The notes under the pieces: generated by a model | Told to the model about the DNA's origin: nothing | The model's input: the letters and a program-made list of their open reading frames with translations, nothing else | Database searches by the model: none | Translations under genes and position numbers: made by a program | NCBI GenBank assembly: GCA_903834845.1 | Contig: CAILKW010000220.1 | Coordinates: forward strand, 1 to 34,151 | Direction of reading: 5' to 3' | DNA length: 34,151 nucleotides | Source of the DNA: an uncultured Bacteroidia bacterium | Lineage (GTDB): Bacteria; Bacteroidota; Bacteroidia; Bacteroidales; Prolixibacteraceae | Shown here: positions 8,820 through 17,844 of the stretch, piece by piece | Position numbering within the stretch: position 1 is the first letter of the stretch | Layout of the letters: the number at the start of each line of letters is the position of its first letter

Positions 8820-8884
8820 CGGCAAGTTGTTGATTGTGTTTTAAGTGTGATATTTGTTGAAATAATTCAAATAATTAATAAGTG

Positions 8885-9901
8885 ATGAAAGATCAACTTT
8901 TTGGTAAAGATTTAGGCGAATTAAAGGAGATCAGTGCTAACCTTGGGTTGCCTGCTTATACTGCACGGCAACTTGCCAACTGGCTCTACAAAAAGGAAAT
9001 TAATTCGATTGATGAGATGAGCAACTTGTCGAAAAAAACAAGGGAATTGCTTAGCGATAAATTTGTATTTGGTCTTATCTCTCCATCTAAAGTTCAAATT
9101 AGTGTTGATGGCACAAAGAAGTACCTTTTCCCTACATTTCAGAATAAATTTATTGAAACAGCAATGATTCCCGAAGAGGAACGTAAAACAGTTTGTGTTT
9201 CGACACAAGTCGGATGTAAAATGGGTTGCCTTTTCTGTATGACAGGTAAACAAGGTTTTCATGGGCAACTTACAGCATGTGAGATAATAAATCAAATCAG
9301 AAGTATTAAAGAATATGGCGAAGTCTCCAACATTGTTTACATGGGAATGGGTGAACCTTTCGATAATCTTGATGCTGTTCTAAAAAGTCTTGATATACTT
9401 ACCTCCGATTGGGGTTATGCAATGAGCCCCAAGCGGATAACAGTCTCGTCAATTGGAATTATTCCTTCCTTGTTAAGGTTTCTCAAGGAGTGCGAAGTGC
9501 ATCTTGCAATTAGTTTGAATACCCCATTCGCAGATGAACGATCTAAACTGATGCCCATTCAAACTGCCTATCCGATTGCAGACGTAGTACACGAAATTAA
9601 AAGTTGGGATTTTGGCAGGCAACGTCGTATATCATTTGAATACATCCTTTTTAAAGGTGTTAATGATTCACAATTACATGTCAGAGAATTGGTAAAATTG
9701 TTATCGGGAGTCAGATGCAGGGTAAATCTTATCCGTTTCCATGCTGTACCAGGATCCCTTCTCTCAAGTCCAGATGAAGATATGATGAATGGTTTCAGAG
9801 ATCAGCTTAACGACAAGGGAATTACAGCAACTATACGAGCTTCACGAGGTCAGGATATCAATGCTGCTTGCGGTTTGTTGTCAACAAAGGAGATGATTTA
9901 G
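8885..9901 (+). CDS. rlmN: Dual-specificity 23S rRNA/tRNA adenine-C2 methyltransferase RlmN
   Basis: A 338-residue radical-SAM enzyme that methylates C2 of A2503 in 23S rRNA and A37 in some tRNAs. The radical-SAM motif CKMGCLFC gives iron-sulfur ligands Cys111, Cys115 and Cys118, followed by MTGKQGF. Also seen are VYMGMGEPFDN, RITVSSIGIIP, HAVPGS and, near the C-terminus, ASRGQDINAACG, which carries the methyl-carrying Cys (about residue 329). ATG 8885 is preferred; a GTG immediately upstream is in frame and would add one residue. It is followed by metK on the same strand, and RlmN consumes two SAM per reaction. metK, however, has its own promoter. Confidence 0.97.
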   Translation: MKDQLFGKDLGELKEISANLGLPAYTARQLANWLYKKEINSIDEMSNLSKKTRELLSDKFVFGLISPSKVQISVDGTKKYLFPTFQNKFIETAMIPEEERKTVCVSTQVGCKMGCLFCMTGKQGFHGQLTACEIINQIRSIKEYGEVSNIVYMGMGEPFDNLDAVLKSLDILTSDWGYAMSPKRITVSSIGIIPSLLRFLKECEVHLAISLNTPFADERSKLMPIQTAYPIADVVHEIKSWDFGRQRRISFEYILFKGVNDSQLHVRELVKLLSGVRCRVNLIRFHAVPGSLLSSPDEDMMNGFRDQLNDKGITATIRASRGQDINAACGLLSTKEMI

Positions 9902-9962
9902 TAAAAAAAGTAGTTCATTTACCTAATCTTAAATTCAAGGTTTTGTAAAAATATTTCCGAAA

Positions 9963-9995
9963 TTTGGAAAACTCAATCAAATGTTTTTATCTTTG
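9963..9995 (+). promoter_or_regulatory. Strong promoter for metK
   Basis: TTTG (9963-9966), a 21-base spacer and TATCTTTG (9988-9995) followed by CA. This is the best complete match in the window to the Bacteroidetes -33/-7 promoter. It predicts a transcript start near 10000-10003, just before the riboswitch-like structure. Confidence 0.75.
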
Positions 9996-10002
9996 CAAAG
10001 TT

Positions 10003-10056
10003 ATTAGTGGATAAATTTGATTGATTGCAACCACGGAAAAAAATGCTAAAACAAAA
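10003..10056 (+). ncRNA. SAM-II-like riboswitch aptamer in the metK leader
   Basis: The transcript start is followed by a P1-like stem GTGG (10007-10010) / CCAC (10031-10034). Its long loop contains TTTGAT and ends in GATTGCAA. After an A-rich connector comes GCTAAAAC (10045-10052). This order (short P1, GAUUGCAA, CCACG, A-rich loop, GCUAAAA pairing back as a pseudoknot) is that of the SAM-II (metA) aptamer as I know it. Its place in front of SAM synthetase fits feedback by SAM. SAM-II is best known from alphaproteobacteria. The motif was recognised by eye only, without a covariance-model score. Confidence 0.7.
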
Positions 10057-10073
10057 TTTTCGGATTCTTTCCC

Positions 10074-10084
10074 ATCAATCAAAT
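10074..10084 (+). promoter_or_regulatory. Possible anti-aptamer segment of the metK leader
   Basis: ATCAATCAAAT here is the exact reverse complement of 10015-10025 inside the large loop of the SAM-II-like aptamer. Pairing of the two would compete with aptamer folding, as an expression platform would. A further hairpin, CTGAAATTTCAG at 10115-10126 flanked by TTGAT/ATCAA, lies between this segment and the metK start. Confidence 0.4.
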
Positions 10085-10146
10085 ATCCCTGTAATTTATT
10101 AATTATTAATTGATCTGAAATTTCAGGTTATCAAATTATTTTTATT

Positions 10147-11436
10147 ATGGGATATCTTTTTACTTCAGAATCGGTGTCAGAAGGACACCCCGACAAAGTA
10201 GCCGATCAGATTTCGGATGCGGTACTTGATGAATTTTTGGCTTTCGACCGTAACTCTAAAGTTGCCTGCGAGACTTTAGTGACTACCGGTCAGGTAATTC
10301 TGGCAGGTGAGATCAAATCACAGACTTATGTTGATGTGCGTGAGGTGGCTCGCAGAGTAATAAACAGGATTGGTTACACAAAAGCTGAATATCAGTTTGA
10401 TGGCGATTCTTGCGGTGTTTTAACCGCTTTACATGAACAATCACCAGACATTAACCGTGGGGTTGATAAGATTGATCGCGAAAATCAGGGAGCAGGTGAT
10501 CAGGGGATGATGTTTGGTTACGCTTCGTCCGAAACTGAAAATTACATGCCTTTATCGCTCGACCTGTCGCATCTGTTGCTACTTGAATTAGCTGCAATTC
10601 GGCGTGAGCTGAAAGTTATGACCTACCTTCGTCCTGATTCAAAATCGCAGGTAACAATCGAGTACGATATTAATAACAAGCCAGTTAAAGTTCACACGAT
10701 TGTTGTTTCGACCCAACATGATGATTTTATTCAGCCTGAAAACAATTCTCCGGAAGCTCAGGCTATAGCAGATCAATCTATGTGCGACAAAATAAAGGAG
10801 GATGTTCAGCAATACCTGATACCCGCAATTGTAGCAAAATTACCCGCATCAATTCAACAATTGTTTAATCCCGGATACATTCTGTATGTCAATCCTACCG
10901 GGAAATTTGTGATTGGTGGACCTCATGGTGATACCGGACTTACCGGACGTAAAATAATCGTTGATACTTATGGTGGAAAAGGAGCCCATGGCGGGGGTGC
11001 TTTCTCAGGTAAGGATCCATCAAAAGTTGACCGCTCTGCCGCTTATGCAGCAAGGCACATTGCAAAAAACATGGTAGCAGCCGGGGTTGCAGAAGAGATT
11101 TTGGTGCAGCTCGCTTATGCTATTGGTGTTGCTCAACCTGTCAATATTTACGTAAACACTTATGGAACTGCTAAAGTAGCATTGAATGACAGTGAGATTT
11201 CTGAGAAAATTTCAGAATTATTCGATTTGCGTCCTTATGCAATCGAAGAGCGTTTAAAACTACGTAATCCGATTTATGAGGAAACAGCAGCTTATGGGCA
11301 CATGGGGCGTACTCCTCAAACAATTACTAAAAAGTACTCTTCTCCCTATTTTGGAGATCTGGTAAAGGAAGTCGAACTCTTTACTTGGGAGAAACTTGAT
11401 TACATTGACAAAATAAAAGCTACATTCGGCGTTTAA
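10147..11436 (+). CDS. metK: S-adenosylmethionine synthetase
   Basis: A 429-residue enzyme making SAM from methionine and ATP. Family signatures are plain: [20 protein letters not shown] at the N-terminus, [12 protein letters not shown] (methionine/ATP binding), [20 protein letters not shown], then [16 protein letters not shown] and [11 protein letters not shown]. The length is greater than the E. coli enzyme (384) but usual for Bacteroidetes. The start ATG 10147 leaves a leader of about 145 bases containing a SAM-II-like element, so expression is probably controlled by SAM. A terminator follows directly. SAM made here would feed methyltransferases such as RlmN, encoded upstream. Confidence 0.98.
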
Positions 11437-11513: not shown

Positions 11514-13199
11514 TCAATTTCCCAACTTCTTCCTTACGAGGCTCTGAATCTCCTCACATCGTTTTTTTGCAGCTATTTCGAGATTTTCAGCCTCACATAA
11601 AATTCCACTGATGGCTTCTTTATCGTCAAAGGATAATGAATTAACGAGAACATTGAGGTAAGCACCCGAAATTGCCGTTGCTGCACAAAGCGCACCAACT
11701 CCGGCATCAGTCACAGAATTTGGATTGCCTGTTTCAATCATTGCCTCAATTATTTCGAATGACTGATATGACAATTGCATAACCCGAAAAGGGACAAAAA
11801 TAGCATTTTGGGTAGCCGATTGAATCGCTTCATTCCGCGTCGCTAATTCCTTTGGAGTTTCTTTTGCTAATTTAAAGGCTTCCATAATTTGATTAAATGC
11901 CTCAGTATCTTTATCAACAAGCTTTAAGAGCTCCTCATATATTACCTTTCCTTTTTCGGCCCAATTTGAAAACTCTTCCCAACGACTGTCCCAACCCCGT
12001 TTATGTGAAGTAAGATTAGCAACCATAACACCAAGTGCAGCACCCAAAGCACCAGTCAAAGCTGCAACTGAACCTCCGCCAGGTGCTGGACAATCGGAGG
12101 CTGTTTCACGGACAAAATCAGATAATTTCAGATTTATCAATTTATCAACATCTTCAGCAAGAATATATTCGATGATTCTTTTATCAGGATCAAAAGTTGA
12201 TAATTCATCGAGACCTAATGATTTAACAGCTATTTTAATAATTTCCCTGTCGGGGATTCCCAAAGAACGTTGTTGCTTTTGGAGATAATATTTGCCTGCA
12301 TTGAGCAATGCTTGTAAAGGAATCATCCCGATTAACTCGGAGCCTGTCACCCTGATTCCCCTGTCTCGTGCCCGTTCACAAACTTCATCAAAAGCAATAT
12401 GAATTGGAGTAGCCGTAATATCTGTAAGATTAATTGATATTTGTGCAATTCCGTATTCCTTAATAAACCAACCTATTGCCCTTACATTCTTTAATGTTCC
12501 GGGAATTCTCACTTGTTCGCCATTTTCATCCGTAATTATTTTTCCGGTTATGGGATCTCCATCTCTTTTTACCCGTCCTGATTCACGAACATCAAAAGCA
12601 ATAGAATTAGCAAGTCGTACAGAAGTAGTATTCAGATTAATATTATAAGCAATTAGAAAATTTCTGGCACCGATTGCGATTGCTCCGGAGCGTTCATTAA
12701 AAATAGCCTTCCCGTAATCGGGTTGCCAACCAGAAGTTTTCAACTTTTCTGCAAGCCCTTCGTATTCACCAGCCCGACAATTTGCAAGACTTCTTCGTTT
12801 TTCTTCAAAAGCAGCAAATTCATAACAATAAACTGGTAATCCTAACTCTTCACCAACTCGTTTCGCAAGTTTTCTGGCATATTCAACAGTTTCATCCATT
12901 GTGATATCTGAAATCGGGATGAGAGGACATACGTCTGTCGCTCCAAACCGAGGATGTTCTCCTTTGTGATAACGCATATCAATCAATTCTGATGCGCAAC
13001 GAATTGCAATGAAAGCAGCTTCAATAACCAACTCAGGTTCTCCAACAAATGTGACGACTGTCCGATTTGTAGCATATCCGGGATCTACATTGAGAAGCCT
13101 TATTCCTTTGACGCTTTCAATACTATCGGTAATTTGTTTAATTAAAGATAGATCACGTCCTTCTGAGAAATTTGGTACACACTCAATAATTTGTTTCAT
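11514..13199 (-). CDS. ftcD: Glutamate formiminotransferase-formiminotetrahydrofolate cyclodeaminase fusion
   Basis: A 561-residue bifunctional enzyme for the last histidine-degradation steps: it transfers the formimino group of formiminoglutamate to tetrahydrofolate, then releases ammonia to give 5,10-methenyl-THF. The N-terminal ~330 residues are the formiminotransferase (MKQIIECVPNFSEGRD, YHKGEHPRFGATDVCPL, IGARNFLIAYNINL). The C-terminal ~210 are the cyclodeaminase (ETASDCPAPGGGSVAALTGA, NPNSVTDAGVGA). Both halves look complete, as in the animal FTCD, whereas many bacteria encode them separately. It is the last gene of the hut cluster, 59 bases after hutI. The released one-carbon unit links histidine breakdown to folate metabolism. 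Confidence 0.97.
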   Translation of the reverse strand: MKQIIECVPNFSEGRDLSLIKQITDSIESVKGIRLLNVDPGYATNRTVVTFVGEPELVIEAAFIAIRCASELIDMRYHKGEHPRFGATDVCPLIPISDITMDETVEYARKLAKRVGEELGLPVYCYEFAAFEEKRRSLANCRAGEYEGLAEKLKTSGWQPDYGKAIFNERSGAIAIGARNFLIAYNINLNTTSVRLANSIAFDVRESGRVKRDGDPITGKIITDENGEQVRIPGTLKNVRAIGWFIKEYGIAQISINLTDITATPIHIAFDEVCERARDRGIRVTGSELIGMIPLQALLNAGKYYLQKQQRSLGIPDREIIKIAVKSLGLDELSTFDPDKRIIEYILAEDVDKLINLKLSDFVRETASDCPAPGGGSVAALTGALGAALGVMVANLTSHKRGWDSRWEEFSNWAEKGKVIYEELLKLVDKDTEAFNQIMEAFKLAKETPKELATRNEAIQSATQNAIFVPFRVMQLSYQSFEIIEAMIETGNPNSVTDAGVGALCAATAISGAYLNVLVNSLSFDDKEAISGILCEAENLEIAAKKRCEEIQSLVRKKLGN

Positions 13200-13258
13200 T
13201 CTTGATATTTATTTACCTATTATTTTAATAATATAACCTGTAATGTTTTAATGCTTTA

Positions 13259-14509
13259 CTATTTATCATTCGCGATTTCTCCCCGTTTCCAAACCTTTGA
13301 GGGCTTTAAACTTCCCTGTTGGTAAAGTATATCGCGATAATCGGAAGTCGGAAATCCTATCATGTCGGCAATAAAACCATTTTTTAAAACTCCCCTGTCT
13401 TTTAAACTAAGTGCATTTGCTGCCCTGAAAGTGATGCCTGCCAATGACTCAGCTATTGTCATTTTTTCAAAGATACCCAACAATGCAGTTTGAACTAACA
13501 GATCTCCCATTGGTGCCGAACCAGGATTCCAGTCGGAGCCTATTGCGAGTGAGCAACCTGAATCCAACAACTTTCGGGCGGAAGCAAAACGACAACCTAA
13601 TCCCAATGAAGCTCCCGGAAGTACAATTGGGATTACATCGGATGCAGCTAATAATTTTATTTCCTTATCTTCAACAATTTCAAGATGGTCAACCGAAAGA
13701 ACACCCAACTCGCACGCCAGCGAAACTCCACCTTTAGTAAACTGTTCCGCGTGAATTACCAAATCAAAACCAATACTTTTTGCTTTTAATAAATACTTCC
13801 GCGCTTCATCAACTGAAAATGCTCCATCATCTATGTATATATCAATCCGGTCTGCCAGAGCAAGTTTTTTAACAATAGGAAGCAGTTCACAAACAATATT
13901 TTCCAAATAATCTGATTGACTTCCCGGAAAGTCCGATGGTTTGATATGTGCTGCAAGGCAAGTTGGGATAAGATCAACAAAATGGGTTTGATTCACTTTA
14001 CCGATAACTTCAAGGAGCTTAATCTCTCCTAAAATATTTAAGCAATAACCACTTTTTACCTCTGTCGTTGTAACACCATTTTTTAAGTGTTTTAATACTC
14101 GTTCCATTAACAGTGCTTCAAGTTCTGCAATAGTGGCATCTCTTGTATGTGAAACGGTACTGTCAATTCCTCCTCCGTCTTGTGCAATTTCGAGATAATT
14201 TTTCCCGGCTAAGCGGAGAGAATAGTCGTTTGCCCTGCTTCCTGCCCAGCAAATATGGGTATGTGGATCGATTAGCCCAGGTATAACAACCATCTGGTTT
14301 TCTACGTATTCGATCCATGAGGAATTCCTAAAATCCGAACAAAGCTGATTAAATTCTCCGACTGCCGCAATTTTTCCGTTGCAAACCACAATTCCACCCT
14401 GGTGAACGGTTTTAAGCTGACTGTCGCAAAGACTTCCTTTCAAAGGAAGATTATCCATTGTTAAAAGCTGAGTAAAAGGGCCGATTATTTTATTTTTATA
14501 ATTGTTCAT
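13259..14509 (-). CDS. hutI: Imidazolonepropionase
   Basis: A 416-residue amidohydrolase-superfamily enzyme that hydrolyses imidazolone-5-propionate to N-formimino-L-glutamate. Visible are the metal-binding motif [16 protein letters not shown] (His83 and His85), [14 protein letters not shown], the later HAEQ and VDHLE histidines, and [10 protein letters not shown] with the catalytic Asp. Its ATG overlaps the hutU stop by four bases, indicating translational coupling. Length and motifs are normal. Confidence 0.97.
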
Positions 14510-16179
14510 TTAAAACTAAGGTTAAATGTACTCATATTATCCTGAGCCTTAATATATCCTGCATCATTATGCCTGAAAATACCCATTGCAGGATCATTGT
14601 ACAGCACCCTTCGAATACAAGTTTCGGCTCTTTCGGTTCCATCAGCAACTACGACCATGCCTGCATGTTGCGAAAAGCCCATCCCAACTCCTCCTCCGTG
14701 GTGGAATGATACCCAAGTTGCACCTCCTCCGGTATTAGCCATTAGATTTAGCAGTGGCCAGTCTGAAACCGCATCACTTCCATCCATCATTTTTTCGGTT
14801 TCTCTGTTTGGTGATGCCACCGATCCACAATCAAGATGGTCGCGCCCTATTACAATTGGAGCTTTTACCCTCCCCGATTTTACAAGATTATTAAATAGAA
14901 CGCCTGCTTTTTCGCGCTCACCCATTCCCAGCCAACAAATTCGTGCAGGAAGACCTTGAAATTTAACTTTCTGTTCAGCTTTTACTAACCAGTTGATCAT
15001 ATCCGTACTATCAGGGAAAGCCTCAATCAGAGCATTGTCGGTTATTCGAATATCTTCAGGGTCACCAGATAAAGCTACCCAACGAAATGGACCTTTGCCA
15101 TCGCAAAACAGAGGACGGATGAACTCCGGAATAAAACCGTTAATGTCAAAAGCATTTTTTTCTCCACCTTGTTTTGCCATCTCGCGAAGATTATTGCCAT
15201 AATCAAACACGATGCTCCCATGCCTCTTCATTTCGAGCATAAAACCGACATGTCGTGCCATGCTTTTTATTGCCAGTGCTTTGTACATTCCATGTTCCGC
15301 TATTCGCATAGCATAAGCCTCCTCAAGAGTTATACCATTAGGCACATAGCCATGCAAAGGATCATGTGCAGAAGTCTGATCTGTAACAATATCAGGAATA
15401 ATTCCATCAGTTAGAAGCCTTTCGAGAGTGTCACCAATGTCAGCAACAAGGCCTACAGAGATGGCATCACCTTGTTCTTTTGCCTTCAGTACTACTTCTT
15501 TTGCTTCTTCGTAGGAGTAGTAAATATAGTCAATATATCCGGAATGAAGTCTTTTAATAATCCTTTCAGGATCAATATCAACACCCAGAAATGTTGCTCC
15601 TGCCATAGTTGCAGCAAGTGGCTGAGCTCCGCCCATTCCGCCAAGTCCACCCGAAACAATCAATTTATGTTTGAGATCTCCTTTAAAATATTTCATTCGA
15701 CAGGCAACAAAAGTTTGGTATGTTCCCTGTAGAATTCCTTGTGAACCTATATAAATCCAACTTCCCGCGGTCATCTGGCCATACATCATCAGTCCATTAC
15801 TTTTCAGTTTTTCGAAATGATCCCAGGTTGCCCAGACAGGAACAAGGTTGCTATTAGCAATAAATACTCTGGGAGATTCAGGATGTGTTCTTACAATTCC
15901 TACGGCTTTGCCTGATTGAATCAGTAAACTATGGTATTCATCAAGTTCGAGAAGGCATTTAATAATCTGTAACAAAGCTTCGGGATTTCTTGCAGCTTGA
16001 CCTGTACCTCCATAAACAACAAGTTCATCTGGGTTTTCGGCAACATTCCCATCCAGATTGTTTAGCAGCATCCTTAATGGTGCCTCTGTCTGCCATGATT
16101 TTGCATGCAATTGATTTCCGGTAGGAGCTTGATAAACAGGATGTGTGGCATATTTATTAATAAATTCCGTATAATTCAT
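14506..16179 (-). CDS. hutU: Urocanate hydratase (urocanase)
   Basis: A 557-residue NAD-dependent enzyme converting urocanate to imidazolonepropionate. Family signatures include [35 protein letters not shown] (NAD-binding glycine-rich region), [31 protein letters not shown] with the conserved Cys, and [20 protein letters not shown] near the C-terminus. It overlaps the 3' end of hutH by 23 bases and the start of hutI by four, so the three are read from one message. Typical length. Confidence 0.98.
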
Positions 16180-17749
16180 GACGTTCGTTTTTAAGTTTAA
16201 ACTTCAGTTTTTTAGCAGCTTTGGCTGAAATAGTAACTAACGTTTTATTTGATACCATTTCAATTGCTTTATTCATTTCCTCAGACATGATGTGATCATA
16301 TTCGGCAAATGGAATTGTTTGTCTTACAAAACGGTGACATTCGTCTATGATTCCACCTGAAGTTAGCGGTCTTCTGAAATCAAAACCTTGGGCAGCGCAA
16401 TATAGTTCAATTCCCAGAATTTTCTCAAGGTTTGAAATTACCATTAGTGCTTTGCGTGCGCTTATTGATCCCATACTTACATGATCTTCCTGTCCCAGAG
16501 ATGTGGGAATGCTGTCGGCACTCGCCGGGAAACACAAACTTTTGTTTTCGCTCACTAAAGCCGCAGTTGTATATTGTGGAATCATAAAGCCGGAATTTAA
16601 ACCCGTCTCTTTCATAAGCAGTTTTGGAAGTCCTTCGATTGAATCATTAAGTGAAAGATAGATACGGCGATCGGCAATATTTCCCAATTCTGATGCTGCT
16701 ACGGTAACATAGTCAAGAGCCATTGCAAGCGGCTGACCGTGGAAATTACCTCCACTGATTGTCTGGCCATCATGTAAAATAATTGGGTTGTCAGTTACCG
16801 AATTTAATTCAATGTTTAACAGCTCTTTAAGATGAAGCCAGGCATTTCGGGAGGCACCATGAACCTGTGGAATACATCTTAGCGAGTAAGGATCCTGAAG
16901 GCGTGAACAGTTTTTATGCGACTGCACAATTTCAGAATTCCCGATAATCATTCTCATTCTTTCAGCTACATAACATATTCCTTGATAAGGCCTTAGAGAA
17001 TGTAATTCAGGAGAAAAAGTTTTTACTGATCCTAACATAGCTTCAAGGTTCATTGCAGCAATCAAATCGGCGTTATCCAGACAGTTTTGCAATCGCTCTA
17101 CAATCTTAACTGTGTGAGCAGTAATAAATTGGGTTCCATTAATTAACGCAAGCCCCTCTTTTGCACCAAGCTCTATTGGTTTTATCCCAAATTTTTTTAG
17201 AATAATTCCCATTTTAACAATTTTTCCTTTGAAAATCACTTTACCGTAGCCTGTCAAAGGAAGAAAGAGGTGTGCCAGAGGAGCCAGATCGCCAGAAGCT
17301 CCTACGGATCCCTGAGAAGGTACTACCGGTATAATATCGTTATTGATATGCCATAAGATCCGCTCGAGCGTATTCATTGAAATGCCCGAATAACCTTTTG
17401 CCAGAGTGTGTACTTTCAGAATCATCATGAGTTTGGCAATATCAGGTTGAATCGGGTCGCCAACACCAACGCTATGACTCATTAACAAATTAAGTTGTAA
17501 CTTTTTTGTATCACTTTCAGAGATAATTGTTGTGCAAAGAGGTCCGAATCCGGTATTGATTCCATAAACTGTTTCATGGTTTGCCACAATGTTTTCAACA
17601 ATACTTCTACTGTAGGCAATCAGCTCACCCGCCTTTGAACTAATGGTTCCGGTAATTTTTCCGGCTACCAGCTTAAGAGCAATGCCTACGGTGAGAGTAT
17701 CATCACCATAGTTAAACGATTTTGGGATTATCTTATCTTTTTGAACCAT
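16157..17749 (-). CDS. hutH: Histidine ammonia-lyase
   Basis: A 530-residue enzyme that removes ammonia from L-histidine to give urocanate, the first step of the pathway. The Ala-Ser-Gly triad that cyclises into the MIO prosthetic group is present as [14 protein letters not shown] (Ala151-Gly153). [11 protein letters not shown] and LALINGTQ are also typical. ATG 17749 (MVQKDK) is chosen over an upstream in-frame TTG at 17755. It is somewhat longer than most HutH proteins (about 500-510), mostly at the termini. As first gene of the operon it is probably driven by a promoter in 17750-17844, where I see no perfect TAnnTTTG, only the one-mismatch TACGATTG at 17818-17811. Confidence 0.97.
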
Positions 17750-17844
17750 ACTCAATTAGTATAAAACATTAAAATCATGGCTGTTAATTTCAGTTTGCAT
17801 AATCATAGTACAATCGTACGAATTATTAATACAACCAAATATGA

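Follow-up and report, generated by a model that had tools for sequence, protein, structure and literature searches.

A SAM-II riboswitch of the long-loop family lies at the head of the leader of metK, the SAM synthetase gene, in the 34,151-nt contig analysed here (this whole stretch is called the window). We consider it somewhat probable that it controls metK by feedback, through a linker strand that pairs either with the aptamer or with the start region of the gene. A cmscan search of the whole window returned two matches above cut-off, a tRNA and the Rfam family RF01726, SAM-II (long loop), at 10001-10059 of the forward strand, with 68 bits against a gathering cut-off of 44, an E-value of 2.8e-11 for the whole window and an alignment over the full model (1-60). 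The ten other Rfam rows for the leader were all far under their own cut-offs. A preliminary description had proposed a SAM-II-like aptamer opening the metK leader and had suggested scoring it with the SAM-II covariance model; the score is significant and the aptamer is confirmed, whereas the accession suggested there, RF00521, was not returned and Rfam 15 gives RF01726. The order of the blocks was also read correctly, namely GTGG (10007-10010), GATTGCAA, CCAC (10031-10034) and, after an A-rich segment, GCTAAAAC (10045-10052). The aptamer itself is not unusual: it belongs to a known family of feedback elements that is widespread. The coordinates of the features are collected in Table 1.

Table 1. 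Features of the metK leader and gene in the window, with the basis of each assignment.
Feature	Position	Strand	Basis
Promoter TTTG-N21-TATCTTTG	9963..9995	+	read directly
P1 5' strand	10007..10010	+	pairs with 10031-10034; model alignment; GUGG/CCAC vs GAGG/CCUC in relatives
Loop L1 strand of P2 pseudoknot	10021..10028	+	P2 pairs counted in 33 aptamers
P1 3' strand	10031..10034	+	model alignment and pair counts in relatives
P2 pseudoknot 3' strand (GCUAAAACAA)	10045..10054	+	model alignment and pair counts
Anti-aptamer strand AUCAAUCAAAUAUCC	10074..10088	+	predicted fold; tests over 46 genera
Start-masking strand AUAUCCC-U-GUAAU	10083..10095	+	overlaps anti-aptamer; pairs with 10144-10155 (predicted, linker without aptamer)
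Hairpin upstream of start codon	10111..10130	+	predicted in both states
Start region AUUAUGGGAUAU, including metK AUG	10144..10155	+	predicted fold
metK, methionine adenosyltransferase (SAM synthetase), 429 aa	10147..11436	+	NCBIfam TIGR01034

Base pairs were counted in 33 of 37 representative aptamers, four f4 aptamers with a long loop L1 being left out. The four pairs of P1 are paired in 100% of the cells; three of them are invariant, and the remaining one is U-A in 25 aptamers and A-U in 8, a change that splits by family and may represent one event. The two helices of P2 are paired in 87.2% and 100% of the cells, and one P2 pair occurs as UA, CG, AU and UG, with both sides changed in 11 aptamers. 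Covarying pairs, which the preliminary description had proposed to look for in relatives, are therefore present in both P1 and P2. In the host genome, P2 joins UUG (10021-10023) with CAA (10052-10054) and GC (10027-10028) with GC (10045-10046), the outer helix UUG/CAA being short. Over P1 and P2 together, 94.5% of the cells are paired, compared with 88.7% in shuffles and 25-43% with slid partners; among the same 33 aptamers, neither the pairs in which both sides have changed (2 vs 2.0 in shuffles) nor the further pair types (7 vs 7.3) exceed the shuffles. In the f7 aptamers of L140-L145, L147-L149, L151, L152, L154 and L155, P1 and the GCUAAA strand are set further apart by one or two additional hairpin-like repeats (at most about 65 bases), and in f4 (L059, L146, L153 and L157) the added sequence sits inside loop L1.

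The promoter was found as previously described, with TTTG (9963-9966), 21 bases and TATCTTTG (9988-9995), in keeping with the -33/-7 promoter consensus of Bacteroidota. It ends 11 bases before P1, suggesting that the aptamer probably opens the transcript. The motif TAnnTTYG occurs no more than 45 bases upstream of P1 in 152 of the 155 parsed leaders, compared with 5.9% of mononucleotide-shuffled upstream stretches and 0 of 155 in the first 45 linker bases; this -7 element exceeds chance. The upstream element is weaker than the -7 element, a TTG at N18-23 before it being present in 57 of the 155 leaders (11 of 16 in the host's genus). A scan of 9850-10250 with the sigma-70 consensus found no promoter, as expected for a promoter of the Bacteroidota type.

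The metK product scores 495.8 bits against TIGR01034 (cut-off 309.4), and metK is the usual target of the aptamer in these genomes. In family-wide and phylum-wide Rfam searches, run with stricter filters that lost some weak matches, RF01726 was found in 127 of the 140 genomes searched of the host's family (f1), covering 23 of 23 genera, and in 63 of the 395 genomes of a phylum sample, 57 of these over the cut-off. The places fetched for inspection were 110 of 128 in the family (18 unfetched) and 50 of 63 in the phylum, the host locus (L001) being counted in both; on these fetched places, metK adjoins the aptamer in 157 of 159 loci, with its start codon at most 400 bases downstream. The short core motif was unmatched in L045 and L048, both of which carry a variant. 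Nine of the 13 host-family genomes lacking an aptamer match have no metK match and three have metK cut at a contig end, while the remaining one, G029, has only distant metK fragments (identities of 45% and 27%); among the host-family genomes searched, none was seen that lacked the aptamer yet had a closely related metK start in intact form. The sole fetched match with an assembled neighbour other than metK is L159, from another class of the phylum, which scores 31.9 bits, below the cut-off, and is possibly a diverged SAM-II; the neighbouring ORF resembles, by eye, an O-acetylhomoserine (thiol)-lyase. For the analyses of leaders, L002 (contig end, no metK) and L159 (no metK, 31.9 bits) were dropped and L156 and L158 were unparsed, leaving 155 leaders from 46 genera.

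The distance from aptamer to ATG, previously put at about 90 bases, amounts to 87 bases, counted from 10059 to the ATG at 10147. The metK target and the long spacer are both present as described, but they are not as unusual as was supposed: 48 of the 49 loci fetched outside the host's family also have metK as their target, and the spacer is regular, the linker after the GCUAAA strand having a median of 96 bases in 109 host-family leaders and 76 in 46 others. The accompanying suggestion that the control mechanism may differ given this spacer was followed up in the linker, where a candidate platform was found, although its states are hardly distinguished in the host leader.

A first possibility for the output is transcription termination, in which SAM would favour an intrinsic or Rho-dependent terminator in the linker. 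SAM-II elements of alpha- and betaproteobacteria are often followed by terminators, according to the available text of two reports (PMC1273637, PMC2258182), and in the host leader the hairpin at 10111-10130 is followed by a T-rich stretch before the AUG; however, the hairpin is predicted in both states, a terminator scan of 9850-10250 found no GC-rich hairpin with a U-tract, and terminators were found in 5 of the 155 leaders, against a shuffled mean of 4.4, the host leader not being among the five. An intrinsic terminator as the general output was rejected at this chance level, and we regard control by termination as unlikely. By eye, the stem sequence of the hairpin varies in the host's genus. 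Riboswitch termination in Bacteroides RNA-seq sets has been analysed elsewhere (PMC12121620), in work that might bear directly on this question.

When the whole leader is folded, the anti-aptamer strand is predicted to form 15 Watson-Crick pairs with the aptamer (10016-10025 with 10074-10083, and 10009-10013 with 10084-10088). This helix ties up the 5' strand of P1 together with the pseudoknot loop and therefore excludes the aptamer. The fold of the host leader is modestly better than those of its shuffles (z -1.80, 8 of 200 as good). In the linkers of the host's genus (16 leaders), the longest run without any variation is UCAAUCAA, which in most of them is followed by UCCC.

Pairing between the aptamer 5' half and the linker was then compared over the 46 genera, in tests that treat genera as independent and whose p values are uncorrected for the number of tests. 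By partition function, the mean pairing is 0.538, compared with 0.286 for dinucleotide-shuffled linkers (Wilcoxon p 2.4e-10); the corresponding values are 0.517 and 0.323 in the host family (p 7.9e-6) and 0.613 and 0.239 in f7 (p 6e-5). Matched aptamer-linker pairs reach 0.529 against 0.332 for permuted ones, with 0 of 20000 permutations as high, and the genuine pair lies above the swapped mean in 37 of the 46 genera. Matched linkers also exceed swapped ones within the host family (p 0.0025) and within f7 (p 0.0035), where one of the two swap comparisons is not significant (p 0.148). In addition, a single-helix score favours a genus's own linkers over those of other genera (mean rank 0.68, p 3.9e-5, 46 genera). 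These results point to a covariation of aptamer and linker beyond what relatives share. The anti-aptamer is almost absent from three of the four f4 genera (0.08, 0.00 and 0.10) and from f1.g12 (0.02), and pairing is not clearly above shuffles in f1.g23 (7 leaders), f1.g3 and f2.g26.

The same comparisons bear on the possibility that the complementarity simply follows from AT richness and common descent, the aptamer having some other output. Linkers pair less when dinucleotide-shuffled, and also when swapped within one family, which makes this explanation distinctly improbable, even though the genera are not independent, the host leader differs little between its states and duplex scores, taken by themselves, are weak for the host family. 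With RNAduplex, p<=0.05 against shuffles was reached by 23 of 109 host-family leaders, 32 of 46 others and 2 of 16 leaders of the host's genus; single-helix scores against shuffles are likewise weak (13 of 46 genera).

The other partner of the linker strand would be the start region. When the linker is folded without the aptamer, AUAUCCC (10083-10089) lies on GGGAUAU (10149-10155) and GUAAU (10091-10095) on AUUAU (10144-10148), so that the AUG is covered; AUAUCC cannot pair with the aptamer and the start region simultaneously. The folding program does not handle pseudoknots, and for the OFF state the aptamer was omitted from the model. In the whole-leader fold (ON), the AUG is still paired, in a weaker seven-pair helix of 10089-10095 with 10144-10150. 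In the models of the host leader, the AUG is thus largely paired in both states, which are hardly distinguished, with a start accessibility of 0.290 ON and 0.289 OFF and a start-linker pairing of 0.72 ON and 0.78 OFF. Taken over the family, the evidence is stronger than in this single leader. Over the 46 genera, the OFF minus ON difference in start-linker pairing exceeds that of shuffles (p 0.00019; host family p 0.025). Accessibility of the start shifts in the predicted direction when all genera are taken together (p 0.001) and within f7 (p 0.0012); in the host family the shift is not significant (p 0.145).

Covariation between linker and start region was examined in samples reduced by a length limit in the start window, with 43 genus representatives in the linker-start pair test and 132 leaders of 37 genera in the swap score. 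Matched linker-start pairs exceed permuted ones in the host family (p 0.0024 for -20..+12 and 0.021 for -6..+9); in f7 the same comparison (p 0.72 and 0.63) leaves the start helix unsupported. The swap score for complements of the start is significant over the 37 genera (p 0.0016 and 0.0003) and in one test of the host family (p 0.012), and not significant in the other (p 0.079) or in f7 (p 0.11 and 0.10). Other host-family leaders have such complements at different positions: in L115, UUAUCCC complements GGGAUAA, which ends in the A of AUG; in L102, GAUCAAUU complements AAUUGAUC before the AUG; and in L006, AAAUUUUAAU complements AUUAAAAUUU.

The feedback switch that we favour builds on computed features, namely family membership, the metK target, the promoter, the pairing potential of the anti-aptamer strand and its covariation over genera. 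At low SAM, 10074-10088 would pair with the aptamer 5' half (its P1 5' strand plus loop L1), with the start region less firmly held (ON). At high SAM, the P1/P2 pseudoknot would form and release the anti-aptamer strand, whose 3' part, with the bases that follow, would pair with the AUG region (10144-10155) and hinder initiation (OFF). Because the class is known, the host aptamer is expected to bind SAM and to switch metK off; SAM binding has been reported for an A. tumefaciens SAM-II member (PMC1273637). Masking of the AUG by the freed strand is a prediction of the folding models. We infer that translation, and not transcription or mRNA decay, is the level of control, since terminators were not found, a start helix is predicted, and initiation in the phylum is Shine-Dalgarno-less. 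Bacteroidetes are described, in the available text of PMC6847099, as having no Shine-Dalgarno sites, with initiation tuned partly by structure near the start codon. SAM-II switches that act on translation have been described as working by direct occlusion, with a ribosome site inside P2 and a linker without a role (PMC10907184), and S. meliloti metA is reported to have a Shine-Dalgarno site that acts from a distance (PMC9373788). Direct occlusion is very unlikely here given the 87-base separation, a phylum described as lacking Shine-Dalgarno sites (PMC6847099, PMC3155529, available text) and a linker that carries a covarying anti-aptamer.

The surroundings of the leader were also inspected. 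Directly upstream of the metK promoter lies rlmN (8882-9901, forward strand; TIGR00048), encoding a SAM-consuming RNA methyltransferase. A conserved rlmN-metK linkage was considered and rejected, rlmN being found in the host locus only among the 159 loci, of which L001-L059 alone have long flanks. On the reverse strand, opposite to metK, 11514-17755 holds a histidine-degradation cluster with HutH and with FtcD joined to a cyclohydrolase-like domain (below the cut-off of that model); the ORFs between resemble HutI and HutU by eye. The source assembly comprises 8.2 Mb in 851 contigs (completeness 97.9, contamination 6.1).

Previous studies place the aptamer within a well-known group. A few occurrences of the SAM-II class were reported from the Bacteroides group in 2005 (PMC1273637), and the long-loop family RF01726 was reported in 2010 from Bacteroidetes and marine samples (PMC2864571, Table 1). 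The host aptamer differs in nothing from that family (Weinberg et al. 2010), having the same full-length match, P1 with the P2 pseudoknot, and the same placement ahead of a gene of the SAM pathway. It is common for metK to be preceded by a SAM riboswitch, and SAM-I, SAM/SAH and SAM-Chlorobi, which are other RNA families, also occur before SAM synthetase genes (PMC2864571); a SAM-I riboswitch was sought in the same genome without a match, and SAM/SAH and SAM-Chlorobi gave no match above cut-off in the window by cmscan. The expression platform may be the only new part. An anti-aptamer with a start-codon helix is unmentioned in the available text of the RF01726 description (PMC2864571), and no such mechanism was found in literature on SAM-II with metK in Bacteroidetes, Bacteroides and flavobacteria, in a search that lay mostly outside subscription journals and supplements. 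We put forward only tentatively, as the less probable case, that the SAM-II/metK leaders of Bacteroidota share an undescribed platform in which a linker strand alternates between aptamer and AUG, forming a Shine-Dalgarno-free translational riboswitch. If true, this would show how translation can be placed under riboswitch control where, as in this phylum, Shine-Dalgarno pairing is not used. The alphaproteobacterial SAM-II elements (RF00521; metA, metX, metZ) belong to the same aptamer class and have the same expected ligand. Their outputs, as far as the available reports describe them, are terminators or a Shine-Dalgarno site located within the aptamer or adjacent to it, whereas the leader described here has a long Shine-Dalgarno-less linker before metK.
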